DNA of 64,000 nt from Paramacrobiotus metropolitanus (Eukaryota > Tardigrada > Eutardigrada > Parachela > Macrobiotidae), in the NCBI RefSeq assembly GCF_019649055.1, contig NW_026570303.1, positions 62,001-126,000 of the forward strand. The letters are read 5' to 3'. This document shows positions 33,591 through 62,939 of this stretch, piece by piece. A program made the position numbers and the translations under genes. Within the stretch, counting starts at the first letter, position 1, and every line of letters begins with the position of its first letter. The notes under the pieces were generated by a model. The model was given only the letters and a program-made list of their open reading frames with translations, did not search any database and was not told the origin of the DNA.

Positions 33591-35294
33591 CTAAGAATCT
33601 TCTCTCCTGCGCATTCTGTTATGTTCCAACATCATCTGCATAAACAAATCTCTAAAATCCTCCGCTTCTACCCCCGCCTCCTCCTCCTCGCTCACCGCTT
33701 CTTCGGATCCACCGTCACCCGACTCATTGCGATTAACCTGCACCGCCGCCGATAGCCCGGTGCTCTTATCCATCGCCGTCACGTGGACGATCCCCGAGCG
33801 ATCATACTCAAAGGTCACCGCGATCTGTGGCCCACCGGCGCGTCCCCTCCGAAACTTCCTAAACCGGAACTTCCCCAGCAGCCGGTTCTCCCGGGCCACC
33901 CTCGCCTCGCCCTCGTAGATGGGAATATCCACCCACCACTGTCCCTCCTGCTCGGTGGTGAAGTCCCGCGTCTCCTTGGCCGGGATCTTGGTGTTCTGCG
34001 CGATCAGGGTGACCATGTACCCACCGGCAATCTCCGTGCCCAGCGAGAACGGTGTCACATCGCTGAACTGAATCCGGATGTCGTCCTCCACCACCGGTGC
34101 ATTCTCGTTGGCCAGCTGGTACGCCAGGTTTGCCGCACCACAGGCAATGGCTTCGTCGGCATTGATGTCACGGTTGATCGGCTGTCCCGGGAAGAAGTCA
34201 GCAAGGATCTCGCGGATTTTCAGGATCCGCGAGCATCCACCGACCAGGACGATCTGGTTAATGTCGGTGCGGTCGAGATTGGCGCGTTGCAGCGCTTCCT
34301 GGACGGGCTCCAAGGTCTTGGCGAATAAGTCGGCGCACAGCTCGTCAAATTTGGCAGTTGATATTGTCGATATCAGGTGCTTATCTCCGTGGAACGCGTC
34401 CACACTCAGAATATGCTTGGCGCGCGCGCTTGTCAGACTCTTTTTAATCTCCTCCACCTTCAGCCTCAACCGGGCCACACCCTGGCCCGCCCGGTCGACG
34501 GTCACGTTGTGTTTCGCCTCAAACTCCCCGATGCAGTGTTCTAAGAGGCGCTGATCAAAATCCTCGCCTCCCAGGTTGAGGTTACCGCAGGTCGAGAGGA
34601 CTTCAAACTTCCGGCCGTTCTCGATACGGAGGATGGACACGTCCAACGTCCCCCCGCCCAGGTCGAACACGAGGATGGTTTGGGTCTCCCGGATCTTGTC
34701 CAATCCGTAGGCTACGGCGGCGGCCGTCGGCTCATTGACCACCGCCAATACTTCCAGACCGGCTTTCTCCCCGGCGGTCTTGGTCGCCCTTCGTTGCGCG
34801 TCGTTAAAGTTGGCTGGTACCGTGATAACAGCCTTCAAACGGACCTCCTGCGTATTCAGGAAATCATCGGCGATACTCTTCATCTTCCCCAGAACCAGCG
34901 CACTGATCTCCTCCGGTTTAAACCGCTTGGTGGTGGTCCGTGATTCGGCGTTGACGTGCTCGGTTTCCGTCATCTCCACCTCCGGGAGCCCGGTGTCCGA
35001 CCGGACGAGAGGAAACGGCCATTTGGACTGGTACGACTGGACTTCCGGGTCGTCGTACTTCCGGCCGATGATGCGTTTGATGGCGAAGACGGTGTGGGTG
35101 GGCCGGAGGTAGCTGTTATCGCGGGCCTCCTTCCCCACGATGCGCTGGCCCTCCTCGAAGGCCACACAGCTGGGCGTGGTGCGCAGACCGTGCTCGTTGG
35201 CAATCACGTCGATTCGGCCGCCGGGGCGGTGGACGGCCACGCAGGAGTAGGTGGTGCCCAGGTCGATGCCCACTGCGGGCGGGGAGAGTGCCAT
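33591..35294 (-). CDS. HSP70 chaperone, cytosolic type, lid-truncated (HSP70 A)
   Basis: Intronless, 567 aa against ~640 for canonical HSP70. The ATPase domain is intact: GIDLGTTYSCVAV, FAIKRIIGRK with the catalytic Lys, NEPTAAAVAYGLD, VFDLGGGTLDVSIL and adenosine motif LVGGCSRILKIRE. The beta substrate-binding domain follows (FSDVTPFSLGTEIAGGYM, FEYDRSGIVHVTA). Instead of the helical lid and EEVD tail there is a short acidic stretch and DLFMQMMLEHNRMRRRE before the stop. It should hydrolyse ATP and bind unfolded segments, but hold them weakly and lack EEVD-mediated CHIP/HOP contacts. It is closest in the window to the HSP70 part of the 44.5 kb fusion gene. Confidence 0.93.
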   Translation of the reverse strand: MALSPPAVGIDLGTTYSCVAVHRPGGRIDVIANEHGLRTTPSCVAFEEGQRIVGKEARDNSYLRPTHTVFAIKRIIGRKYDDPEVQSYQSKWPFPLVRSDTGLPEVEMTETEHVNAESRTTTKRFKPEEISALVLGKMKSIADDFLNTQEVRLKAVITVPANFNDAQRRATKTAGEKAGLEVLAVVNEPTAAAVAYGLDKIRETQTILVFDLGGGTLDVSILRIENGRKFEVLSTCGNLNLGGEDFDQRLLEHCIGEFEAKHNVTVDRAGQGVARLRLKVEEIKKSLTSARAKHILSVDAFHGDKHLISTISTAKFDELCADLFAKTLEPVQEALQRANLDRTDINQIVLVGGCSRILKIREILADFFPGQPINRDINADEAIACGAANLAYQLANENAPVVEDDIRIQFSDVTPFSLGTEIAGGYMVTLIAQNTKIPAKETRDFTTEQEGQWWVDIPIYEGEARVARENRLLGKFRFRKFRRGRAGGPQIAVTFEYDRSGIVHVTAMDKSTGLSAAVQVNRNESGDGGSEEAVSEEEEAGVEAEDFRDLFMQMMLEHNRMRRREDS

Positions 35295-36634
35295 GGGTTG
35301 GACGGTATCCTAAAACTACAAAAACATTGGCAGTTCCTCATCAGTCGCGCCGCGTGTATCCGTGAAGCGTATAATATTATTCGGTATTATTAATCATGTT
35401 AGGAAAATACGAAACAAATAGAAAGCAAAACTCAAGAAACAGGCAAAGCTGGTTCTTGTACTTGTACTATTCTTGTAGTATGTATAACCAGTATAAATTA
35501 AATTGGATTAGTACGTCCTCACCTCTATCGATTAATGGCTTCCACACTGCACATGGAGAAATCTTTTCCGCAGTTGGAGAAATTCTGCGCCTGTACGATG
35601 CTGAAGGGTCTACCGTCACCGTGTTTACCGTTACAGCAGAAATAAATCAGAAAGCTAAATGATTCTAAGTCCTCACGTAATGTGCGTCATGATGATATCA
35701 TCGTCGTGCCCCTGCCAAAGAATTTTCGAGCAGCGAACTTGATGTCAATTTGTCAAGCAGCATTAAACGGTTTCAGCTTGTTGCACTTGTTAGTCACCGG
35801 AAGCACTTTCTGATTAAACGAGATACCACGCATTATGGTATGTGCTTTGTTTGCAAGCACTACCAGCTGGGTGCAGTTAACGTTTCTACTGTATTTGCAC
35901 AGCTGAAGCTTCGTACGTTAACTGAAATTATTAAATTTTGCAAAAGACCGAAACACGTAATCTTATCTCAGTCTGAGAACATTGGACGTTGAGTCAAAGT
36001 CATTTACTTTACGATGCGCCTTCAAGTACCTTGTACTTCTAACAAGTCTTCTTTATTTTCTGATTATTCTATAGAAGAAGCGCTACGCGTTTGGATGAAA
36101 CGATGAAAGCGCAATGTAATCTGTAAGCATCTCAAACTTCTTTACCTATGAATTATACTGTACAGTAATAAGTAAATAAGCAATTCTGTATCAACTTCTT
36201 TAATTCTTTCAAGTTATTAGTCTTTGCAGACTATTGAGTGCATATCTATATATAGTACCATGATATTTCTAAATACTGTAGTCGGTAGTTTAGTAATATT
36301 ATGATAGTACGCATCAATTCACCTTATGTAAAGCGTAAAATCAATTCAGTGAAAACGTCTGGGTTTTTGTATCTGCAGATTGGTTTTATCCGGAGTTTTT
36401 GATTAAATAGCACCACTTTACGGAAGTCTCCCATCCACCAGGAACAACACTCTGTCATCGCGTGGTAAGCTGGTATCGTTTAAATGTTTTTATACACCAT
36501 TAAAACTTTCGTACATGGTTCAAAACTTGCGCTATTTGTGTGTTATCGTGCAGCGATAAACCGGCAAATTCCGGTATTGTTTTTCGGCATAACACACAAA
36601 TAAGCTGGTATCGTTTAAATGGTATCGTTTAAAT
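35295..36634. other. Divergent promoter region, HSP70 A / HSP70 B
   Basis: It separates two divergently transcribed HSP70-family genes. A direct repeat, TAAGCTGGTATCGTTTAAAT, occurs at ~36467 and ~36601, and its second copy is partly tandem. I did not find a convincing run of alternating nGAAn heat-shock elements by eye. Confidence 0.4.
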
Positions 36635-38325: not shown

Positions 38326-39035
38326 AAATAATGAAATTGTTTGCTTTCATGCATGCTCGCTTTCTCACTCGTTACCGACTGACTGACGATTTTTTCATGC
38401 TCGAGTTCATGCAGTAAATGCTCTTAACTACAGAGTACTATAAAATCCGCTAATTACATTTACCGACACCTTTAACTGAGTTTTACGGTTGACTTGAATC
38501 ACTTTAAAAATATTTTCATTATTCAGCAATACGAATTTATGGACAACACGACCGTCGTAACCGACAGAACTGTTCAGGGAGGTAAACCGTTCGCTAAAAA
38601 TGCTTCTGCTCTTAAAACGCACTCCGACAGAACCGTGCGGGCGACACTCCGGATCTTTACAGTGTCAAAACTTCTCTACAAAACTTCTTTACAGTATCAA
38701 AAGTGAAAAAAAGCTGAGCGGGTAAGACCTGCGATGTACTGTACATTTTTTTTGACTGACGGACGGTTTCAGGAAAAGACGCGTGACGGTTTATCCATCC
38801 GGATGGTTTTGCCGGTAACTTTCGCACGAACACGTAATCTCTGTGGAATGGAAGGGCATATGTTTACGATAAGATTAGAATGATTCAGAACTATATCAGA
38901 AGGTTTGGTACGTTTCCTCAACTGTCGATGCAGCATCATATCAATAGAGAAACTCGAATAAGTTAGTTCTTCGGGAAGTATCGCTACTTTATGTAGATAA
39001 TAAATAGCTAAATTTATTGTAGAAGTTGATAGATT
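38326..39035. other. Intergenic
   Basis: Spacer between two co-directional HSP70-like genes. No coding or RNA feature is recognised. Confidence 0.4.
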
Positions 39036-40289
39036 ATGGCTTCCACTGCGCCCGGCGCGCCTATTGCTAGTGCTACATTATACATCGACCTGGGCACGGC
39101 GTACGTACGAGCGGCCGCAAAACTCTCCAATGGCACGGTAAAATATTTGGAACCCAAGGGACACCAATGTCTCCCGACTTATTTGTCATTACTCTCCAGC
39201 GGCAGCCAATCCGAAACGTTCATTGGTGAGGACGCTAAAGAGCTCTCCAGCACCAGCCTCCATAATGTTGCCTTCTATCCAACGCTCTTCCTCCGCCCGG
39301 AAGCTAATCCGTCCTGGGTTAACCGATACCGTTTACCGTTTCTCATTAAACACAATAATAACTGTATATCCATGCAGTTTGGAAACGGGTCCGCTACCGT
39401 CACGGAATTACTGGGGAAATTTCTGGCTGAGCTGCGAAATCTCTGTTGCGATGAAATCGGCGACAATGTAGTGATTACAGACTGCGTGATAACGGCTCAC
39501 AATATACCGCTGCTAAAGAGCAAACTACTGCCGGCGTTTTCGCTGACTGGATTTCAACGGGTGGCATTCAAAGAGCGGCAGCAAATGCAAATGTACGGAT
39601 TGCTGACAAATTTTCCCGAACTGCAACGTGATCGCACGCATTTGGTGGTCATCCGCATGGGAGCGGCGTTTACCAGCCTCAGCGTCTGCGAACTCGGAAA
39701 CCGTCAACACAAGGTCACTATCGTCCGACCGGAAGAGATCTTTGGCGGCAACGATATCGATGTTTTGTTAATGAACCACGCGATTCAAGAATTTGAAAAA
39801 CTATACGAAATACGCGGTCAAAATTATTGCACCGAAAGCCTGCATCGCCTACGCCTGAAATCTGAGCAAGTAAAGATCCAGTTGTCCACCGCCCGGGCGG
39901 TCACCCTGCAGGTTCGGCAGTTCCATGCCGGGTGTGATTTGGTGGTGGAGTTTACGGTGGAGAAATTTCGGGAGATTGTGGGTAGTGCGTGCTATCAACT
40001 ACTGCGCCGAGTGACCGACCGAGTGTTGAATTATATCCGTGAGCTACGGAAGACGGTGCGGTACGAAGTGGTCCTGCTGGGCGGGACTAGTAAGATCCCG
40101 TTAATACACGAGATGGTGACGTGGATGATGCGGCGGCCGCATTATCGAGCGCGCAGTGTCATGGACACGCTGACGCTCAGCGGCATGACTATGGCGCACA
40201 GCGAAAAATACGAAGAGGTCACAACCACGAATGGAGCGTTGGCGCTACGCGGAGGATTTCCGTTTCGATCACGTTTTTCATGCTTATAA
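39036..40289 (+). CDS. ATPase-fold-only HSP70-like protein (HSP70 C)
   Basis: Intronless, 417 aa, covering only the HSP70/actin-fold nucleotide-binding region. Phosphate-1 survives as YIDLGTAYVRAA. Phosphate-2, normally DLGGGT, is VIRMGAAFTSL, so the catalytic Asp and the Gly run are gone. The adenosine motif VLLGGTSKIPLI is kept. The FAIKR lysine segment and NEPTAAA are not recognisable. No substrate-binding domain follows; after ARSVMDTLTLSGM the protein ends in an unrelated ~30-residue tail. It groups with the 42 kb and 60 kb genes but lacks their long tails and the intron before RSVM. It is probably a non-catalytic pseudochaperone or a regulatory partner. Confidence 0.85.
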   Translation: MASTAPGAPIASATLYIDLGTAYVRAAAKLSNGTVKYLEPKGHQCLPTYLSLLSSGSQSETFIGEDAKELSSTSLHNVAFYPTLFLRPEANPSWVNRYRLPFLIKHNNNCISMQFGNGSATVTELLGKFLAELRNLCCDEIGDNVVITDCVITAHNIPLLKSKLLPAFSLTGFQRVAFKERQQMQMYGLLTNFPELQRDRTHLVVIRMGAAFTSLSVCELGNRQHKVTIVRPEEIFGGNDIDVLLMNHAIQEFEKLYEIRGQNYCTESLHRLRLKSEQVKIQLSTARAVTLQVRQFHAGCDLVVEFTVEKFREIVGSACYQLLRRVTDRVLNYIRELRKTVRYEVVLLGGTSKIPLIHEMVTWMMRRPHYRARSVMDTLTLSGMTMAHSEKYEEVTTTNGALALRGGFPFRSRFSCL

Positions 40290-40819: not shown

Positions 40820-43442
40820 CTAAACAAGCGTTCCGTAGCAATTGGGACACATCGTACCATCTTTCTCTTCTTCATCTTCCGAAGTAAGGCTAAATTCGTC
40901 GTCGGAAAGCGGCGCTTCGACCTCACCGCACGGATATCTGACGTCCGTGACACGTGGGGCGGTGCCGCCACTATAATTACTGTAATTTGGCTGGTGGATG
41001 ACGGCGCTCTGCATCGTAAGAACCATTTTTGAAATGGGAACCGCTTGGTGGATCAGAGCGGTATTCTTCGACGAATTTCCAGTTTGGACACTTTCCCGAC
41101 GAACCGGCGGGAGCGGTGCCGGCGGCAGGGCGTTCTTCTCGCTAGGTGCCGGTGCGGAATTTTGTGAAGCCGATAATCCGTTCTTCTGTCGTTCAGTTCC
41201 GTGTTCATGCAGCGAAAGGTCATGCTGCAATGCTCCGGAGTCAATCGGCTCTCGGGTATTAAGGAACTCTGTCGCCGGGATCTCAGAGCGCTGATGTCTG
41301 ATCTCAGTGCAAACCTCTTCCTTGGCAGGGGTAGAGACGGAATTTGGTGTTCTCGGAGTCACGATAGCAGGCGGCCATGTGTTAACGTCATTGTTGGTGG
41401 GAACAGAGTTGTCCTTGACGATCAGTGCCGTGTGGATTTCAGTTTCCGGTTGCATCGTGATAACTGTGCGGTTGCTCTCCACGTTTGTCACGCTTCGCAG
41501 CCCACCGAACCGAGCGGTTGGCGGTGGTGTGGTTTGTTCGGTTTTCCGGATGGTTGGGCTTTCACTGGCGGAACGCGACGTCCCCGCTGTATTTCGCGCG
41601 AACTCTGCATTGACGACATCCGGTAGCGGAGTTGCCGAGTGCAAACGCGCTTTATTTTCGCCGGATATACTGAAGTTGCTGGTGGATGGTTGAGCTTCGT
41701 CGGAACGGTGTGGAGATGCGGTGCGGCTTCCTGATGAGGAGCCGGTCTGAACGCCGCCTCTAGATACTAGTGTGGCTTCCACATTTTCAGCACTGATTTG
41801 TTTGCGACCTGTCATTGAGTGCGAAGTCTCCACCACACTGGGAAACGGCGCCAAGCGTGAATTTGGTAAAGGGGCCATTGTAGTGGCCGGTGCGGTCTGC
41901 ACACTGCCGCTGCTGTACGATTCGCTTCCAGATTGCGGCGCTGTCTGGCCAGAAGAAAGCGCCCGAAATGGGTTCGGGTCGAAGAACGTATATGATGCGC
42001 TTGGGGCGGTATTATACAGGGTCTGGTGCGTGGTAGCGGGTTCGATTGGCCTTCGGTTAGATAAGTGCTGCGTGGTCGAAGGACGAGGAGCACTACTCGC
42101 AGGCTTTGCCAATGCTTTAGCCGGCGGCGGTAGGCGCGTTAGGCCGCTGATGACCAGACCATCCATGACGCTGCGTACCTGTATGTGATTTAACGTTGTT
42201 AACGCTTCAGGCCGCCGCAGCGAAAAAATATCGGTTTGATATTACAGTACAACTAACGTAAAATATGTGTACCTGTTGGTTTGGTTTCTGAAGCGTCCAT
42301 GTTACGATATCCTGCACTAGCGGAATCTTGGACGTTCCACCCACGAGTACCAGCTCAAAATCTCGTTTTTGCCCGCTGAAAAACCGGTCCACTTCGCCCA
42401 CCAACGTCTTCAGCGCCTTATAGCAATCCCCGCCTACCAAATCCCGAAAGATCTCACTGGTCATCTCTACCACCAGATCGCCTCCCTGGAAGAACTGATT
42501 CACCCGCAGGGTCACCGCTTTCGTGGTGGACAGCTGAATCTTCACCGCTTCACAATTCAGGCGTAGCCGGTGCAGGTTATCCACGGAGAACTGTACATTG
42601 CCGTTCAAGCGGTAGAGTTCAACGAATTTCTTCAAACAATACTGCACCAGAATGACATCAATGTTGTTCCCGCCAAAAGTCTCCGTCCACGACGCTAGCA
42701 ACACCGGTTCCGGTTGCGTGGTATAGACGCAAAGCGTAGAGAACGCCGCGCCCATGCGAAGAACCAAAATCTGCGAGCGTTTGCGCAGACTCGGGAACTG
42801 TCGCAGCAGGCCGGTAATTTGAGCGGTACTGCGTTCTTTCAGATGATAATCCTCAAAAACACTAGTGTGCAGTGCCTGCCGTAGCCAGCCGTCCACGGAA
42901 GACAGCTCGTGTACGGCGATGACGCAGTTGACGATGCTGTACTGGTCATCCTGTTCCTGGCAGATTTCCCGTAGTTTATTTAAGAACGCGCGGTTTACTT
43001 TGACAGCGTTGATCCAAGCACCGGTTCCGTCCAGGACCCGGTTACTTTTGTCGGTGGCGGTGTCGTAGTCGAGGTATCCGGTGGCGCCCACTAACAGGGA
43101 ACACAGGCCGCTGGCTTGGACGTACGTCGTGAAGGGCATGGCAAAGTCCACCCATGGACTGCTGTTGTAGCTGTCGCACGCCGTCGGTATGGCATCTTTG
43201 CGCAGGAAGAGCGCCGGGTACAACACGATATTTCGGGTGCTGGTGTTAGACAGTTCCCGGGCGTTCAGTCCCACGAAATTCTCGCCCGGCTCGGAGGACA
43301 GGAAGAGGTACGCGGGCAAGGCATTTTGGCCGTTAAACGACAACGGTTTCACTTCGCCATCGGGACACTGGATAGCGGCTTTGATGTACGCGGTACCGAA
43401 GTCCAGGTACAGGGTAACCGGAACTCCTTGCCTTAGCGCCAT
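40820..43442 (-). CDS. HSP70-like ATPase fold with long disordered tail and terminal CxxC (HSP70 D)
   Basis: Two exons, 43442-42273 and 42178-40820, phase 0 (CAACAG|GTACAC; ATACAG|GTACGC), 842 aa. Residues 1-390 are a degenerate HSP70 nucleotide-binding domain: YLDFGTAYIKAA, phosphate-2 replaced by VLRMGAAFSTLCVY, adenosine motif VLVGGTSKIPLVQ retained. There is no substrate-binding domain. Residues ~400-842 are Ser/Thr/Pro-rich and low complexity, ending in an acidic patch (SLTSEDEEEKDG) and CPNCYGTLV. The paired cysteines could bind a metal jointly with a partner or form a disulphide. The paralogue at 60.2 kb shares the architecture. Function is unknown; loss of the catalytic Asp argues against a conventional ATPase cycle. 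Confidence 0.85.
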
Positions 43443-44490
43443 TAGGGTGGGAAAATACTACTACAGGCTTTGTGTGCGTTTTGCTATCTTGCCTAAAATT
43501 AGAACACTGTATTGATCAAGTATCGTAATGAAAGTTAACACTGTTGATGCTGAAGGTAGCTAACTAGTTATCACAAATTATAATGGAGATAGAAATGTCA
43601 ACAAGGCAACACGATAACTGTTGGACTTTCAGCCGGTACGGCGCACAGGCTATCTTGGCTCGACGATCGGCATTCGGCAGCAGTACAATACGGAACAGTT
43701 TTAAGAACTTCAAGCAACTGGAAACAACTTTCAACTGGAAACAAAGTCAACTAAGTTTTGTCTTTGCGGCAATCGGATCAGCCAAGTACTAGTGAATGAC
43801 GATAGTTGCTGTGTGATTCAATAATACGACGTTATCAGAGGAATTCTTCGACCCAGTTGATTGTATGTCGTTGACGCAGTTTGCTTGACTGAGGATACTA
43901 TCTATAATAGTAACCAGTAACAAGTAACAGCCACAGTACTGCAATAATATCACCCAACAAGTACACATTTCTGCCGTTCCCAGTTTTTCTGCCAGAAGGC
44001 TCTAGATATTATAATATGAGTACATGTAGTCATAAAGGATACATGAGTGCTCTCTGTTTAACACGTACCGGTATTTACCAAACAGGAAATGCACCATGAG
44101 TCACCGATTAGACACAATTATTCAGCGTGTTATCATCATACTGTACAATCTGTACTCACTCGCTCCTTCGGCTGAAGAGCACAGGTCAGTCCGATTACAA
44201 TTATTTGAGAAGTGTGTTCTGACAACAGTCTGAGAATTAATTACTTGAATGTGCTATTACACCTGCAGTTAGCACCGCATAGGAGCTTCTACAGTTTTGC
44301 CTGTACTTAATTTTATACCAGTCTTCCCACATACCGGTAACTCCGTCAATGTTTGAATTTGTTTGAATTACGATTTTTGGAGAACGGCCAGTGAGCGTTT
44401 GCTACTTTAGTTTCAGCTAGTACAGTGTGTAACTTACAGTAATTACGGTAATTTAGCAGTTCCTGTTTTTGATATATTTTTTTGGGCTTG
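43443..44490. other. Divergent promoter region, HSP70 D / HSP70-HECT
   Basis: A ~1.05 kb spacer upstream of both genes. No coding exon is recognised. A GAATTCTTC fragment near 43840 resembles a partial heat-shock element, but I do not see an extended array. Confidence 0.35.
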
Positions 44491-44532
44491 ATTGCACAGG
44501 GTGCACCAAGTCTAATTGCACAGGGTGCACCA
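44491..44532 (+). promoter_or_regulatory. Tandem mini-hairpin repeats in the HSP70-HECT 5' leader
   Basis: ATTGCACAGGGTGCACCA occurs at 44491-44508 and again at 44515-44532, 11 nt before the start codon. Each copy can fold TGCAC/GTGCA. Placement just upstream of the ATG suggests a leader structure that could affect translation. That role is inference. Confidence 0.5.
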
Positions 44533-44543
44533 CCAAAGCGACA

Positions 44544-47500
44544 ATGAACAGCCAGTTTACCATCGGTATCGACCTTGGCACGACGTTTTCCTGCGTCGCC
44601 GTGCGTCGTCAGAATGAAGCCTTGGAGGTGATCGCCAACGAGCACGGTCAGCGCGTCACACCCAGCTGCGTGGCTTTCGAGGAGGGTCAACACACGGTGG
44701 GAATCGAAGCCCGTAACAACAGCTATCTCCGCCCGGCTAACACCGTCTTTGCCATTAAACGCATCATCGGACGACGCACCGACGAACCGGAAGTCCAGCA
44801 GTACCGCTCCAAATGGCCCTTCAAAGTCCTCGCGTCGTCCAACGGCCTCCCGGAGGTGGAGATCACGGATATCCAACATGTCAACAACGAAACACGGACC
44901 GTCGTCAGCCGTTACACACCGGAGGACATCAGCGCCTTCGTCCTGGAGAAGATGAAGGCCATTGCCGAAGATTACCTGGGCAACGGTGCCGACAATATCG
45001 TCCTGCACGCGGTCATCACGGTGCCGGCGAATTTCAATGACGCCCAGCGGCGGGCTACCGTGGCAGCCGGGGTAAAGGCGGGGCTGAAGGTTTTGGCAGT
45101 GGTCAACGAACCGACAGCGGCGGCTGTCGCCTACGGGCTGGATAAGCTGAACCAGTCCCAGACAATTCTGGTATTCGACCTGGGCGGTGGGACCCTGGAC
45201 GTCTCCATCCTACGAATTGAAAACGGTCGGAACTTCAACGTCCTGTCGACCTCCGGCGACTCCAACCTGGGAGGGGAGGACTTCGACGAACGCCTACTGG
45301 AATACTGCGTCTCCGAGTTTGAAAGTAAGAATAGCGTGACAATCGATCGCAAGAGTCCCAGCGTCGCCCGTCTGCGCTTGCGAGTGGAGGAGGCCAAGAA
45401 GGGTCTCGTCAATGAGAACTCGAAAGCGGTGGTGGTTCTGGACGCATTCCACGGCGAGCACCACCTTCGGGAAATCATTACCAAAAGAAAATTCGATGAA
45501 TTGTGTGAGGACCTGTTTACGAAGACCCTGGAGCCGGTCGAGGAAGCCCTACGCCGCGCGGACCTGGAGAAAAGCGACATCGACCAGGTAGTTTTGGTCG
45601 GCGGGTGTTCTCGCATTCCGCGTATCCGAGAGCAACTATCGGTATATTTCTCGGACCAGAAAATCAATAAGGATATCAATGCCGACGAAGCCATTGCCTA
45701 CGGAGCCGCCGTCCTGGCGCACCAGTTATTGAATGACGCCACCGGAAATGCCAACACCGGCATCCAGTTTAGCGACGTTACTCCCTTCTCACTTGGCACG
45801 GAAGTGGCGGGAGGTTTCATGGCGGTGCTGATTCCCCAGAACACCCGCATCCCGGCCCGGGAAACCCGGGAGTTCACTACCGAGCGCGACCATGTCTGGT
45901 ACGTTAATATCCCGATCTACGAAGGTGAAGGGAACAAGGTGCGGGAAAACCGATTGCTGGGGAAGTTTCGCTTTGGGGATTACAAACGCGGACCGGCCGG
46001 CGAGCCACAAATCGATGTGACCTTTGAGTATGACCGTTCAGGAATCGTCCATGTCACTGCCGTCGACCGGCGCACTGGACGCTCTGCTGACGTGCAGGTC
46101 AACCGCCAAGGGGTGCCGGATGAGCGTCCTGACAGCGATAGCGATGATTCATCTGGTAAGTAATTCTTTCGATCACTTGCAACAAAATATCGTCGAATTC
46201 GAAAATTATATACCCTAATTCTGTACAAAAATTTGGTCGCTGTCTCGTTGTTTGATATGCGTTTTCTTGTAGAGGAGGAAGCCGATGAGGATCCCAACGC
46301 CGATGATGACCGGCAGAGCCAAGAAAATCAGGTTCGTCCACAATTTATCGAAATCGTTCCTTCGTTGTATCATTCGATTTAATCTTGTGGAGTTGCAGGA
46401 AAATGAAGATCCGGATTCGGAAGAGGAGCTTAGCGAGGTTTTTATGAGTAAGTACATAGATCTTACCAGTAGGCATATCGCCGGACGTGTATGTGCACTG
46501 TATTTTTTTATGGTCTTTAGGAGGATTTTTGCGGTTTTTGGCGGGATGTTTGGAGGAAGAGTTCAACTTTCCCCAGGTCAGCAGCACCCTCCCGGCACCC
46601 GTCACGGAATTTATTAACCGTTTTGTGGCCCGCCGAGCTGACCGACCGGAGCTGCAGTTGTCCAGTATCGATAAGGCTTTCGATGGGCTCCTCCGGCATT
46701 TCCATCATGCCGGCCGCGACGCACTGGCTTCCGTTCTTAAAATCAATTACCAACAGTAAGCTTACACTTGCCGGTTTTTGCGCTGACCGGGACAGTAATA
46801 GTCAAAGAAACCATTTTTATAAAAACATGAAACAACAAAAGAATACCTGGCTCGAACAAATCAAGCAAATCTTTATCAAAAACTATGCTCATAAATTTGG
46901 TTTGTTAACAAATTTATAAACAGATCTAACCTTATAATTTTTAATTATGTATTTTGTTTCTTACAACAAACAGCATCAATTGTATAAACTTTGTACCTGA
47001 AACATTCATTTAATTTTTGTTACCTTGCAGAGGAATTGACCGCGGTGGCGTCTCTCGTGACGTTACCCAGGCCGCCTGGGACCAGGCCAAAGACTTCCGG
47101 CACGCGGGTGTCCGCGTTTTCGAAGGCGAACCCTTTAAGACCGTCACCAGCCAACCGGTGGAAGACTGGGTGCTGCGATCCATCGGCAAGTTCCTCTTCG
47201 CTTCCATAGTCCACGGCTACGCCTGGCCCAGTTGGTTGGATAGCTCCATGTTCTACTACATGGTCGACGTGCCCGTTGACCCTGAGCATGCCGCTCTGGT
47301 TAACGCCACCGTGGCGGACCTGCTGGTGGCTGTTGATCAGTCAACCGCCACCGGGAATTTCCGGCGGCCATTCCCGATCTGTTTGCATGGATGGAGCATC
47401 ATGATTTGCAGGTAACTAGCGACCGCTTTCCCGTTCTCTCTTTCTTCTTTCTATTTGACGTAAAGTATGTAGTATGGGTTCGTGGAAAAATTTGAAATAT

Positions 47501-48326
47501 AAATCATATTAACAGGCTTCCATATGGAAGGATAAAAACAAGGAAGATCTGAAAAAGGAAATCGTCAAATACGAACTGTACACGCGCCGCCGGGGAAATA
47601 TTCTTCTTATTCGCGAGGGCTTCAACCAGGATAATTTTTTGGAGGTACTTTAACACATAATGCCAGGTGTTGCAGTGTTCTGTATATCTTTACAAACACA
47701 CTACAGAAACGATTGAATTTCGAAGTTGCGATTCGTGCCAGTTGCCCATTATTATGCTTAGGTTATCCGCGATCCAGCCATACTGCAAAGTTTAATGGAA
47801 TCGCTGTGCCGCATCGTCACCAGCGCCGACGACATTCTCCGCGAGCTGAGCCTGCCGCGACACTCCGACGAATACCGCGACAAAGAGCAGATCGCCGTCA
47901 CGCATTTTGTTAAATACATCCAGACGGCTACTGTCGACGAGCGACGAGCCCTGATGACCTTCATTACAGGTTTTACACGGATACCGTTGCCGAAGAAAAT
48001 TGAAGTGAGTTACTGTAGAATAACTGTACTACAACCGGCTTTGGGCGAACTTTGGCAGCATATGTGATTCTGCTAACACGCTAACTATAAAAACTAAAGA
48101 AATTGAAAACGCTCTGCACCGCTTTGTATAATTCACTATTGGCTTTGCGTTGATGCAGATTGTCTTCCAAGACTCGGAGGAGCCCCGACTACCGGAGGTG
48201 CACACGTGTGGACCGCAGATCCGTCTCGGAATTCACTATGGCACTGGGCCCTCTGGTTATGCGCAGTTCAAGAAGGACTTAGCCACGTCTGTCACTGCCA
48301 GCCGGCACCAGTTCGGGATGCAGTAG
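44544..48326 (+). CDS. HSP70-HECT E3 ubiquitin ligase fusion protein (one apparent frameshift)
   Basis: Eight exons: 44544-46155, 46273-46331, 46399-46447, 46521-46755, 47031-47411, 47516-47644, 47762-48004 and 48159-48326. Exon 1 is a complete HSP70 ATPase (GIDLGTTFSCVAV, FAIKRIIGRR, NEPTAAAVAYGLD, DLGGGTLDVS, GGCSRIPRIRE) and beta substrate domain. It splices (TCTG|GTAAGT) into acidic exons 2-3, then a helical exon 4, and then a HECT domain. That starts at QQGIDRGGVSRDV, includes SIVHGYAWP (N-lobe), and ends TGFTRIPLPK...LPEVHTCGPQIRL...FGMQ with the thioester Cys at 48207-48209. All junction phases match. Within exon 5 the frame must shift by -1 around 47330-47355 to reach FPAAIPDLFAWMEHH; the exon sum is 3n-1, confirming one missing base. 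The expected product is ~958 aa, a chaperone that could ubiquitinate its own clients. Confidence 0.75.
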
Positions 48327-49172
48327 TACCGCGCACATCGTTAACAGACTCCGTATATCGTTGCCGTTGTTTCGTTCTCCAACCTGGTCGACGTTTGTCT
48401 TGCAACAAAAAGCAACAGTTAGCGCGCTTACGGTCAGTTTACGACTGGCGATCTCGAAATCGGACACGACGGTTGCACGCGTGATGATCAATTTTGTGTA
48501 CCCGTGACGTACAACTTTGCTATTAATAGTGTTTCATTTTAATACAACTATATGCTCATTGCTCAACACAATCTGTTTAGAATTATTTTGTTGTATAAAA
48601 AAACAGGAAGTTTTGTTATCGAGCCTAGACTCTGCGTGCACCGTTTATAGCGAATGAAATTCAATGAACACTTAATCGTGTTGGTGTTTTGTAAACTTCT
48701 ACGCCGTTTTAAGGGCATGGAACGAATGAAGTTCAAAGCTTTTTGGAATCGCGACAACACCATGTACGGACAACGGTTTGCAAATACAAATCTCGGATTT
48801 ATCGTAACTTCACTGACCATTTGGTAGGTTTACCGCAATTTTAGTAGCGTTTGCTTACAGTAATATCGACCAGTGATATCAGTATCAAAACATTTTGAAG
48901 GCAGTGCATCGATGCTTTCCCGGTGAAAACGATGTGCAAAAGTAGTTCACTGATCATAAAATAAGAGTATGTTTTGTAGAAATTATCGAAAGATACACAG
49001 CTCAGGTCAAAAATTCGGCGAACAAAGATCCGGCATTCCCGGTGGCTGTTTTTCCAAAAGCATATTAAGCATAGTATCCAAAGCAAAAAATCCCAAAAAC
49101 CTAGAATAAGGCAAAATATCACGGAAATAATTGCAGTATTTTCACCATAATTGTAGTAGTTTACTTCATTAA
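48327..49172. other. Convergent 3' region, HSP70-HECT / SLC5
   Basis: A minus-strand hydrophobic open stretch at 49122-48841 (FCLILGFWDFLLWILCLICFW) could be a last transmembrane exon of the SLC5 gene if a GC-type donor near 49185 is used. Otherwise no gene is seen. Confidence 0.35.
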
Positions 49173-59094: not shown

Positions 59095-60232
59095 AAACCA
59101 AATTCCAAAACTATTGAGTGTTCCATGCTGGCACGGAAAAATGCACAACGTAAAGAAAGCGAAATGTGGAACCGCTTGTAGTCGTGCACATATGCAGAGC
59201 GGAACATTGTTTTACAGAACGATCGTTATTACTTTTAATTTCGGTGTATGAACTGTGAAATGTGTGCGTTCCTTTAGCTCGATACTTGACCAGGAGTAAA
59301 AGCACGAACCTAAAACAGTACCCGATCGCTAATGTGAGTAAAATAACTCACGGAGTCACGGTAACTGTGTAAAAATGTTTTATATGTATTTTGCCAGTCC
59401 AACGAATAAAGAAAGTTTTATGGTTGTCAACTTGTTAGCGTCGGAAAGGTTGCGAATGGGTGCGTGGACTTTCGACCGCCAGTTTGGAAAAGCTATCGTA
59501 AACCTTGACGAGCAAGTAAAGTATGCACATTGCAGTGACGAATGCTTTGTTAAAAAAACGGGCAGAACAGAAGCCGAATCCATTTTTCAGTGTAACTAAT
59601 AGTTATATAAAAGTGTAACTGTTAGTTGTACTGAAAAAATGGTTTCGCCTCTTGTTCTATATTCTTGTATGGTTCAACTGTACTGACTTAACTTCTACAC
59701 TATACAGAAGCAAAAGCACCTAGGCGTACTTAAAGTTGTCAGTATTACAGCGATCCTATCTATAGTGTCTACAGTATAATTAATGCAGTAGTTTGTAGTA
59801 CCTCCCTGCGCATCGTAACATGGTCCGTGACCATTGCGCGAACACGTATAATGTAATAACTCAGGAATGTCGGTGATAACCATCATCGCGACTTCGGCTG
59901 CTCAAAATGATTCAGACTGACGTTAAGCCATTCAGCAGCAGCTGTGGCTGTACTCGTTCTCTGTTCAAATTTTACCGGTTTATCAGATAAAGAATATTTT
60001 TGAAGTTACAGTGCGCACGTACGTCATATTATTACTCGTAAATAATGAGAATCTCGTACTGCACCACCAACTTAGTTGCCTGCTTAGCAGGTTTTGCTAT
60101 TCATTTCTCCGTGGCTGCACAATTCCGTCCAATGCTCTTTTAAGCACACTACGCTGTTTGTCTACCATTGAACATTTCAATCATTCGGTGGCTCTGATTT
60201 TCTCAGTCGCAAAACTATAGCCTGGTACAAGG
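59095..60232. other. Intergenic; possible extra 3' exon
   Basis: A plus-strand open stretch at ~59386-59599 (MVVNLLASERLRMGAWTFDRQFG) might be a further exon of the kinase-Kelch locus, since an acceptor-like TTTTGCCAG precedes it. No domain is recognised. The remainder is the upstream region of the next HSP70-like gene. Confidence 0.35.
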
Positions 60233-62651
60233 ATGCCACCAATTCGAAAACCAGTTTCCGTTTTACTATGTCTGGATTATGGCAGCGCGTACATTAAAGC
60301 GGCTGTTCAGTTTCCCAGTGGTGAACTGCAACCGTTAACTTTCAACGGGCAGAATGCCCTTCCCACCTACCTTTTCTTCTCCCCGGACCAGGATGAAATC
60401 TTTGTGGGGCACAATGCCAAAGAGCTCTCCAATGCCACGACACGGAACATTGTCTTTTCCCCGGCACTGTTTCTCCGCGATAACGTAACCGCCACCTTGA
60501 ACTCTACCGACCTTAACGACGATAATGAATGGCTGGATTTTGCCATGCCGTTTTCATTACGCGCGGATACCCGCGGCGGGTGCTCCATGAAGATCGGCGC
60601 AGAAGGTAGAGGGTACTACGACACCGCCGAACATTCCTGTCAAATGGATCTGGACGAGAGCGGCGCGTGGACTGACGCCATCGAGCTGAATCGGCTGTTT
60701 TTGCGAGGATTGCGAGAAACCTGCCAGGAACAGATTGACGAGCAGTACAATATTACTGCATGTTGTATCGCCGTGCAACAGATGGAATTTATATCCAACG
60801 CGCTGAATCAGGCAATGCTGCGCAGCGGTTTCAGCCAGTACAAATTGGTTGATCGAGACACGGCGCAGATTAACGGTTTGCTGCGACAGTTCCCTCACCT
60901 TGGGGATCGCGGTTACATTGTGATTCTGCGGATGGGCGCCAATTTTTCTACTGTCTGCATTTATTCCACGAATTACCAAAGGTCAACATTGGAAGCCACG
61001 AGGACGGAGCATTTTGGCGGCAACATCATCGATCTAATTCTGATGCGTTTCTGTTTAAAGCGGTTTGCCGAGTTGTACCGATTAAACGGTGTCGTAAACT
61101 TTGCGGTGGATGATCTGCACAGGTTGCGCTTAAATTGCGAGGCGGTGAAAACTCAGCTATCGACAACGCGAGCAGTTACGCTAAAAGTTAATCAGTTCTA
61201 TAAAGGGTGTGATTTAGTCGTGGATCTGACCAGCGAAGTTTTCCGGGATTTAATCGGAAGTTACTGCTATACGACGCTGAAGACGTTGGTTAAGGAAGTG
61301 GAGGAGTTTTTTCAGGGCAGAGCAAGGAACTACGAGCTGGTGATGCTGGGCGGGACGTCGAAAATCCCCCTGGTGCAGGAAATTGTCACGTGGACGCTAC
61401 AGAAACCGAATCAACAGGTACGGCTTAAAGTAATACAGTAAGACAAGGAAATTAACAAAACTAACAAGGTAACAAGAAAAGACAGTCTACGTCTAGGAGT
61501 ACGATCCATGAAGTGCCACAGTTATATTATTGGAGTGAAATTATGCAGCTCCGGTACTCCAGTTATAAGCTGTGGTAATTTCGCAGGCACGGAGTGTTAT
61601 GGCCATTGTGGTGCTGCATGGAATGGTCGATCACCGTCGTGACAAAGTTCAGCCCAGTGCGTTAGCCAGCATCTCTGATGCCCCGTTTCCGAAGGAAGCC
61701 ATTGCCAGCCGCGTGAAGATCGAGAATAAGTGTTATGGCTCCGCTCAACCGACGACCGCATCTGCTGATATATCGCCGCCGTCCGTTTCCCGTCCGACGA
61801 CGCGATCAGTCACCGCGATGATGGCTGACCGCCTTGAAAACGCCCATGGATCGCCGGCGGACTGTACCCCACTAGCTCCATTGACTACCACCGCTGAGAC
61901 GTCGCATGCGCATACTCTGACGATACGTCGGAATCGCGTTACCTGCAATACGACGGCGACCCACGCAGTTCCTCTTCGTTCCAGGGTCAGTCGCGATAAC
62001 CTGCCCAATGTTAGTAATTCCGTGGCAACGCCATCGGTGGAAACTACGAATTCAGCATCCACGTTAGCCGCCCCCGGATCCGCTACGACCGAGAATATCC
62101 GCGTACCACGATCCTCCAGCGTTAACCGCCCTTTGCCTAAGGAGGGTTCGGAGTCGCCACAGGTTACGTCAGGCAAACCGCGGACGGCCAGTTTGACGCG
62201 CGCACCCACAACAACTAAACCATCGACCGATCCACGCATCCATACCGAATGGAACCAACAGGACCATCGAACTGTTGTCCCGATTGATTGGGTTCCCAAA
62301 GCAAGAGTCGCGCCGACCACAGCTTTAACCAACAATAATTCTATTAGCGCGGAAGAGAAACGAGTATCAAATAGCGAAGTTAGGGCTAACCTCGCTATAG
62401 ATTCCATTCGGAATAAAGAGAGAGACTCCATCGCTCAGAATCCGCCGAGGTCTGACGGCAGCCTTTCTACAACCCACCCCGGAAACAAGCCCGAATGTGT
62501 CGCGTCTAGCTACTTTCACGCCAGCGCCACGGAAACGGCGAGCCACGCGAATGTACCGTCTGCAAAGCGCGGTGCTGTGTACTGTCCCGATATCGATGAT
62601 GAGGTATATCGTGCGCCACCAATACCTGTGCGGCGCGATAGTCTCCGGTAG
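60233..62651 (+). CDS. HSP70-like ATPase fold with disordered tail, C-terminus cut by in-frame TAG (HSP70 F)
   Basis: Two exons, 60233-61417 and from 61587, phase 0 (CAACAG|GTACGG; TTCGCAG|GCACGG), same intron position as the 42 kb gene. The ATPase fold has CLDYGSAYIKAA, phosphate-2 decayed to ILRMGANFSTVCIY, and VMLGGTSKIPLVQ retained. The tail is Ser/Thr/Pro/Arg-rich. It stops at TAG 62649-62651 after RRDSLR, giving 749 aa. The same frame stays open for another 95 codons to TAA at 62937-62939 and ends in an acidic patch and CPRCCHTYV, homologous in position and pattern to the CPNCYGTLV end of the 42 kb paralogue. The stop is therefore probably a recent nonsense change, a readthrough site, or removed by a 78-nt intron (62648-62725, poor signals). 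Confidence 0.82.
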
Positions 62652-62939
62652 CGCACCGTCTATACGGAAGCCCCCGGTACCGGTTTTTCGCAAGCGGCTT
62701 CCGCTGCCACAGCGGTAAGGGACAGCAGACAGCCAGCCGCTGTTCACAGTGCCTTACCTTCCTCTCCATCATCGGGCGAAGTTGAAAGCTTAGAATGGTC
62801 GGCGGATCGGTCTCCAGGTGGTGCAGGGAACCCGTACTACGCTTTGCGCGCTCAACTGGCGGACAGGAGTGTCGTTCGTATCACTGACAGCGAGGTGGAG
62901 GCGGAGACTTGTCCTCGGTGCTGCCATACTTATGTTTAA
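62652..62939 (+). other. Open C-terminal extension of HSP70 F after TAG
   Basis: Ninety-five sense codons in the frame of the upstream exon, ending SVVRITDSEVEAETCPRCC and three more residues, then TAA. The Ser/Pro/Ala-rich composition and terminal CxxC match the tail of the 42 kb paralogue, so this was, or is, coding. Confidence 0.65.

Follow-up and report, generated by a model that had tools for sequence, protein, structure and literature searches.

Can an HSP70 chaperone and a HECT ubiquitin ligase be parts of one and the same polypeptide? HSP70 clients are normally passed to separate ligases such as CHIP, and the question is raised here by a locus of the tardigrade Paramacrobiotus metropolitanus, for which the original prediction, made from the DNA letters alone, had proposed a single chain uniting both activities. 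The window, namely the whole stretch of 64,000 nucleotides analysed, corresponds to C83:62001-126000 of the genome, and the searched genome comprised 169.8 Mb in 533 contigs. According to passages of PMC11191345, the current P. metropolitanus genome was assembled with Canu from Nanopore reads. Of five DM-domain matches in the searched genome, two are on C5, at 2.135 and 2.163 Mb, in agreement with the two Dmrt paralogues that PMC11191345 places on Parri_scaffold0000005 in a synteny block at 1.96-2.37 Mb.

Within the window, an eight-exon chain runs from 44544 to 48326 with all exons on the + strand, in the order HSP70, acidic linker and HECT. The HSP70 part is a single exon (exon 1, 44544..46155), which starts at ATG 44544, encodes the ATPase domain, the beta substrate-binding domain and the start of an acidic tail, and ends at the donor CTG/gtaagt. 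The D/E-rich acidic linker is carried by exon 2 (46273..46331), for which two of the three frames are open, the joined one among them, and by exon 3 (46399..46447), whose donor is TGA/gtaagt. The HECT part is distributed over exons 4 to 8. The predicted borders 46155/46273 and 46755/47031 are indeed both GT-AG, introns 1-3 (117, 67 and 73 nt) have canonical borders, and the GC content of the introns is 29-40% compared with 43-60% in the exons. Directly 5' of the HSP70 start codon, at 44490-44532, lies an imperfect direct repeat (gattgcacagggtgcacca / aattgcacagggtgcacca).

The HSP70 half was recovered as predicted, with both the ATPase and the beta substrate domain. In the Pfam check, PF00012 matched the chain joined from exons 1-3 at aa 7-559 (2.4e-166, 554.9 bits; profile 2-532 of 599), and IGIDLGTT, VFDLGGGT and VVLVGG, the phosphate and adenosine motifs of the HSP70 ATPase core, are present. 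When the best 60 of 163 matched PDB sequences were compared, the best matches among those listed were 3c7n, 7kw7 and 1yuw. Exon 1 could be aligned to solved Hsc70/HSPA1A chains over aa 5-520, up to Hsc70 residue 504, and so shares the NBD and SBDbeta (~500 residues) with the cytosolic HSP70/HSC70 proteins HSPA8 and HSPA1A. No SBDalpha lid was found, since beyond aa 520 the chain no longer aligns with solved HSP70s and the acidic linker follows, and the EEVD of cytosolic HSP70s is absent from the fusion chain. Because the alignment stops before the lid and EEVD is lacking, the exon 1 product is, as judged from its sequence, a lidless HSP70 relative distinct from canonical cytosolic HSP70.

The closest HSP70 paralogue among the matches listed lies in the same window but outside the fusion (33594..35309, - strand; 68% identity; PF00012 1.3e-162). 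It is a single-exon gene with an acidic tail, without lid and without HECT. Two differences from Hsc70 are common to the fusion HSP70 and this paralogue: the linker LLLLD is replaced with IQFSD, and the Arg before INEPT with an Ala before VVNEPT. Both positions have roles in HSP70 allostery and J-protein coupling. Since the pair shares IQFSD and Ala at functional positions, it would, if these roles apply, have been specialised before the fusion took place.

The HECT half is more divergent. Exon 4 (46521..46755) is the HECT entry segment, in which 46610-46755 is homologous to an exon on contig C158 and, via C158, to contig C21. Exon 5 (47031..47411) encodes N-lobe sequence with a net one-base slip and a two-frame tblastn match; exon 6 (47516..47644) also belongs to the N-lobe and lies within the PF00632 match. 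The end of the N-lobe and the start of the C-lobe are encoded by exon 7 (47762..48004; PF00632; tblastn 2e-6 against C21). Exon 8 (48159..48326; tblastn 6e-5 against C21) completes the C-lobe with LPEVHTC, which holds the catalytic Cys, the C-terminal FGMQ and the stop TAG. When the half was read through the slip with an X, PF00632 matched at 1.6e-14 (54.7 bits) over profile 36-304 of 306, so the predicted HECT domain is present and near-complete. The part after the slip alone gave 8.2e-14 (52.4 bits), while no Pfam match at E up to 1 was obtained when exon 4 and the 5' piece of exon 5 were taken by themselves. C83 was absent from the list of the PF00632 scan across the genome, and its short, divergent exons are the probable reason. 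The predicted LPEVHTC thioester motif is kept, and FGMQ places a Phe at -4, a residue with a functional role in HECT ligases. Apart from the slip, a three-frame read-out of the HECT exons showed no stops, with GT-AG borders and the Cys kept.

Searches of the genome with HECT pieces identified two clear relatives, on C158 (5.0e-12, 38%) and C21 (6.3e-10, 39%), and these are the nearest relatives of the window HECT among the sequences searched. Other genome matches were weaker (26-37% identity, best E 1.4e-5), several of them being repeats. Reading by eye, intron 4 and the phase 0 intron 5 occupy identical codon positions and phases in the window, C21 and C158, and the phase 0 intron 7 agrees with C21 in both respects. 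The donor of exon 5 and its phase also match both relatives. Exon 4 matched C158 by tblastn at 2e-4, and C21 matched C158 in the same region at 5e-11; no direct match of exon 4 to C21 was seen among the best 40 listed. Both contigs are absent among the matches listed for HSP70 (88 and 91), where the 88-match set scored 69 of 130 candidates and absence there is no proof. Comparison of the C21/C158 ORFs with the HSP70 genes of the window likewise gave nothing above noise among the best 40 matches per locus. Because C21 and C158 have these introns in common with the window, and no HSP70 match is listed for either, exons 4-8 are genuine HECT exons, placed 3' of an HSP70. The C21 HECT, joined by eye, scored 43.1 bits vs 55.6 for the window HECT; hence, slip aside, the latter looks at least as well preserved as a relative that seems to be intact.

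Compared with HECT ligases of known structure (E6AP, TOM1 and SMURF1 among the PDB matches listed), the window HECT has the N- and C-lobe signatures, LPxxHTC and Phe -4 in common. It is nevertheless divergent, with marginal PDB matches only (best TOM1, E 0.039), and the window chain differs from these ligases in that its N-terminal module is an HSP70. The C158 locus (L021, C158:196500-204500) keeps the N-lobe exons, no C-lobe match was found there, and this relative may be broken. It also holds a 436-codon open frame at 1220-2530 that is integrase-like by eye. Elsewhere in the genome, HECT-bearing near-identical repeats are found on C121, C2, C4 and C85 (L009-L012; 99.3-99.8% identity over 3.1 kb), and another set (L005-L008) has common stretches 94.9-99.7% identical. 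As far as their sequences tell, these repeats look like mobile elements carrying a HECT ligase. A retrocopied HECT, or one derived from the repeated elements, was ruled out for the window gene by the introns conserved with C21 and C158, and the repeated elements also by the greater distance (26-37%) of the other genome matches.

Are the two halves joined in one gene? The acidic run begins in exon 1 and goes on through exons 2-3 in the HSP70 frame, where 18 of 36 residues are D/E. None of 31,857 open 36-codon stretches of window DNA reaches this density, a count that serves as a guide and not as a P value, the exons having been chosen by the model. From 46460 to its end, the frame of exon 4 is open but lacks any ATG, so the HECT part needs splicing to an upstream exon. 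A reading as two adjacent genes would let the HSP70 end after exon 1 (...DSSGK) or at 46617; the short HECT gene behind it would have its start at ATG 46444 or in an upstream exon not yet seen. It can draw on the stops that the unspliced frames of exons 1 and 3 meet at 46163 and 46617, and on the closest paralogue, which ends after its own acidic tail. It can also draw on the ATG 46444-46446, codon 573, at the end of exon 3, which contradicts the original prediction of no start between the halves. This in-frame ATG, however, has a T at -3, a poor start context by the usual rule, and sits one base 5' of the donor. Read in the HSP70 frame, exons 2-3 moreover look like acidic coding sequence, a promoter would find little room in introns 1-3 outside the HSP70 exons, and the ORFs of C21 and C158 have no match ahead of the HSP70 above noise among the best 40 per locus. 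The two-gene reading, including either choice of HECT start, is weakened by these points and rather unlikely. Poly(A) signals do not discriminate between one gene and two, as no AATAAA occurs in 43901-49000, a range that takes in 674 nt downstream of the HECT stop, and three TATAAA lie in intron 4.

Two further ideas about the join were rejected. Homology to the tail of the closest paralogue had been considered as support for the exon 3/4 junction, the actual HSP70-to-HECT join; the score was reached by 415 of 2000 shuffles for the tail end and by 341 of 2000 for full tails, which is not significant, and the junction is left with no homologous support. That the HSP70 might sit within an intron of a longer HECT gene was examined with ORFs of at least 30 codons at C21 (8.5 kb) and C158 (8.0 kb); no match ahead of exon 1 rose above noise among the best 40 matches per locus, a depth at which weak ones could be missed. 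Taken together, the predicted chain of HSP70, acidic linker and HECT is supported in its order and single strand by the domain models, the conserved introns and the absence of any convincing start for the HECT part alone. We consider that the HSP70 and HECT parts probably belong to one gene.

The frame of this gene is a different matter. All seven splice junctions had been regarded as phase-compatible, whereas six of the seven fit and junction 5/6 fails. Exon 5 enters in phase 2 and leaves in phase 2 (donor 47411), and exon 6 requires phase 0; adding up the exons gives a CDS of 2876 nt (2 mod 3). The literal product has 790 residues, with the stop at codon 791 (window 47550) in exon 6, before the catalytic Cys. 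The assembly contains no single open reading frame across the HECT domain, and the intact single-chain chaperone/E3 of the original prediction is not borne out by it, as the HECT frame is interrupted in exon 5. Exon 5 measures 381 nt (0 mod 3) vs 367 nt (1 mod 3) in both C21 and C158. Against C21, tblastn aligned it in two frames, 47029-47268 and 47337-47417 (grouped E 4e-16). Against C158 it aligned at 47038-47376 (5.9e-16) and in another frame at 47343-47414 (E 0.12 alone). The slip is positioned between about 47333 and 47376, and leaves the exon net one base short of whole codons.

How often such slips occur in this assembly was calibrated on 88 listed HSP70 matches, amounting to 59,583 nt. 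Four neighbouring pairs change frame with a gap of <=20 nt, all with a start difference of 2 mod 3, i.e. one base missing or two extra; a fifth, at C6:1854116/1854438, was left out of the count, its gap being 40 nt and its difference 1. The rate of ~1 slip per 15 kb corresponds to about a one-in-six chance in the 2.9 kb CDS. Slips of the one-base-missing type were located in an EEVD-ending HSC70 gene (L023, C2:3562300-3564900, about 1915-1940) and in a KDEL-ending BiP gene (L028, C6:856600-858900, about 1440-1475). Similar frame changes occur in two divergent C72 HSP70 genes (L024, L027), which could be true pseudogenes. The EEVD-HSC70 and KDEL-BiP are expected to be intact in the living animal. 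At exon 5 an assembly error is therefore plausible, given that HSC70 and BiP have slips of this kind in the same Nanopore-based assembly, and we judge it somewhat likelier than a true break. The calibration is useful in itself, as it reveals frame slips even in the EEVD-HSC70 and KDEL-BiP genes of the assembly.

If the one-base loss were real, the gene would be a fusion with a dead ligase of 790 aa, consisting of HSP70 and a partial HECT N-lobe with no catalytic Cys; its transcript would probably be removed by nonsense-mediated decay, or the animal might be polymorphic for the loss. This is what the assembly says when taken literally; comparison with two relatives confirms the slip, and the C158 relative, for which no C-lobe was found, hints that this HECT type may decay. 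The remaining HECT exons, however, carry no second lesion and keep their splice borders and Cys, and similar slips affect the HSC70 and BiP genes, so we regard a dead ligase as doubtful. Phase could also be restored by an extra intron ending at 47396 (e.g. 47326-47396 or 47332-47396): GT donors of the right phase exist there and farther upstream, and an AG is present at 47396, the phase of 47397 having been hand-counted over 15 nt to donor 47411. But the borders are weak, there is no pyrimidine tract, and residues aligned in both relatives would be removed, which makes such an intron very improbable. Programmed ribosomal frameshifting through exon 5 would fit as a -1 shift, but no X XXY YYZ heptamer occurs in the exon 5 frame and the relatives C21 and C158 need none; we give it next to no weight.

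The best explanation, if still a tentative one, is a gene fusion expressed as one eight-exon transcript that encodes HSP70 NBD-SBDbeta, the acidic linker and HECT. A lidless, EEVD-less HSP70 paralogue in the local cluster would have gained, as its 3' end, HECT exons whose source was a separate HECT ligase gene. As the HECT exons kept their introns, DNA-level duplication or shuffling is indicated and not a retrocopy. We infer a single transcript, a frame intact in the animal, and ligase activity. In such a protein exposed hydrophobic segments would be held by the SBDbeta with the fast kinetics of a lid-free HSP70, the HECT C-lobe would reach them by way of the flexible acidic linker, and the HECT cysteine would transfer ubiquitin to the bound client. 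The ligase would then be carried in cis, instead of an E3 borrowed through EEVD and CHIP, with HECT occupying the place of lid and tail. That the true sequence is in frame, and encodes a single-chain chaperone-E3 whose own HECT replaces the lid and the CHIP-docking tail and triages unfolded proteins, is a possibility we hold a shade more tentatively than the fusion itself. An HSP70-only form possibly alternates with it, made when intron 1 is retained, with a stop after ...DSSGK, or when intron 3 is, with a stop at 46617. The fusion was seen once, in one genome.

CHIP (STUB1), which carries a U-box, likewise couples an HSP70-bound client to ubiquitination, a role that is predicted for the fusion. 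PMC8913300 describes CHIP as an E3 of its own, which docks on the EEVD tail of cytosolic HSP70 through its TPR domain. Here, in contrast, the HECT is predicted to lie in the same chain and EEVD is absent. The Pfam families listed for the fusion chain are HSP70, weaker ATPase-fold families and HECT, with neither TPR nor U-box among those listed up to E 1. HECTD3 with HSP90 is an example of a HECT E3 acting on chaperone clients (PMC5489699); it resembles the fusion in combining a HECT E3 with a chaperone, but the two are separate proteins. No HSP70-HECT fusion is described in the titles and abstract starts of the open PMC papers listed for HSP70 with HECT, and PMC8195603, the one paper containing both 'HSP70 domain' and 'HECT domain', uses them in unrelated passages. 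The HECT part had no confirmed match in prokaryote genome contigs, as expected. The HSP70-HECT architecture is thus provisionally new, by a comparison that covers the open PMC literature. If it is true, binding of an unfolded client and its ubiquitination can be one enzyme in a stress-tolerant animal group, and chaperone-guided degraders would have a natural model in it. Should the break in the frame be real, the locus would be a recently lost fusion, of lesser interest.

The next closest HSP70 paralogue (48%), on C63, is a single open frame of 757 codons with an in-frame C-terminal extension (L026, C63:283500-286500, 1733-2380), and no Pfam family matched its last 216 residues. For comparison, passages of PMC6652013 describe a large expansion in Hypsibius exemplaris, with 69 putative HSP70 genes. 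The cluster in the window includes three short, divergent HSP70-like genes, at 42210-43457 (-), 60221-61438 (+) and 39033-40286 (+), with PF00012 E values of 1.7e-13, 5.7e-15 and 1.6e-23 among the three. The first is followed by a long open frame at 40823-42241 (-) and the second by 61569-62648 and 62652-62936 (+); no Pfam match was found for 40823-42241 and 61569-62648. Both units end in a CPxC motif, CPNCYGTLV in the former and CPRCCHTYV in the latter, where it lies after an in-frame stop at 62649-62651. The CPxC-ending frames are possibly another kind of HSP70 tail.
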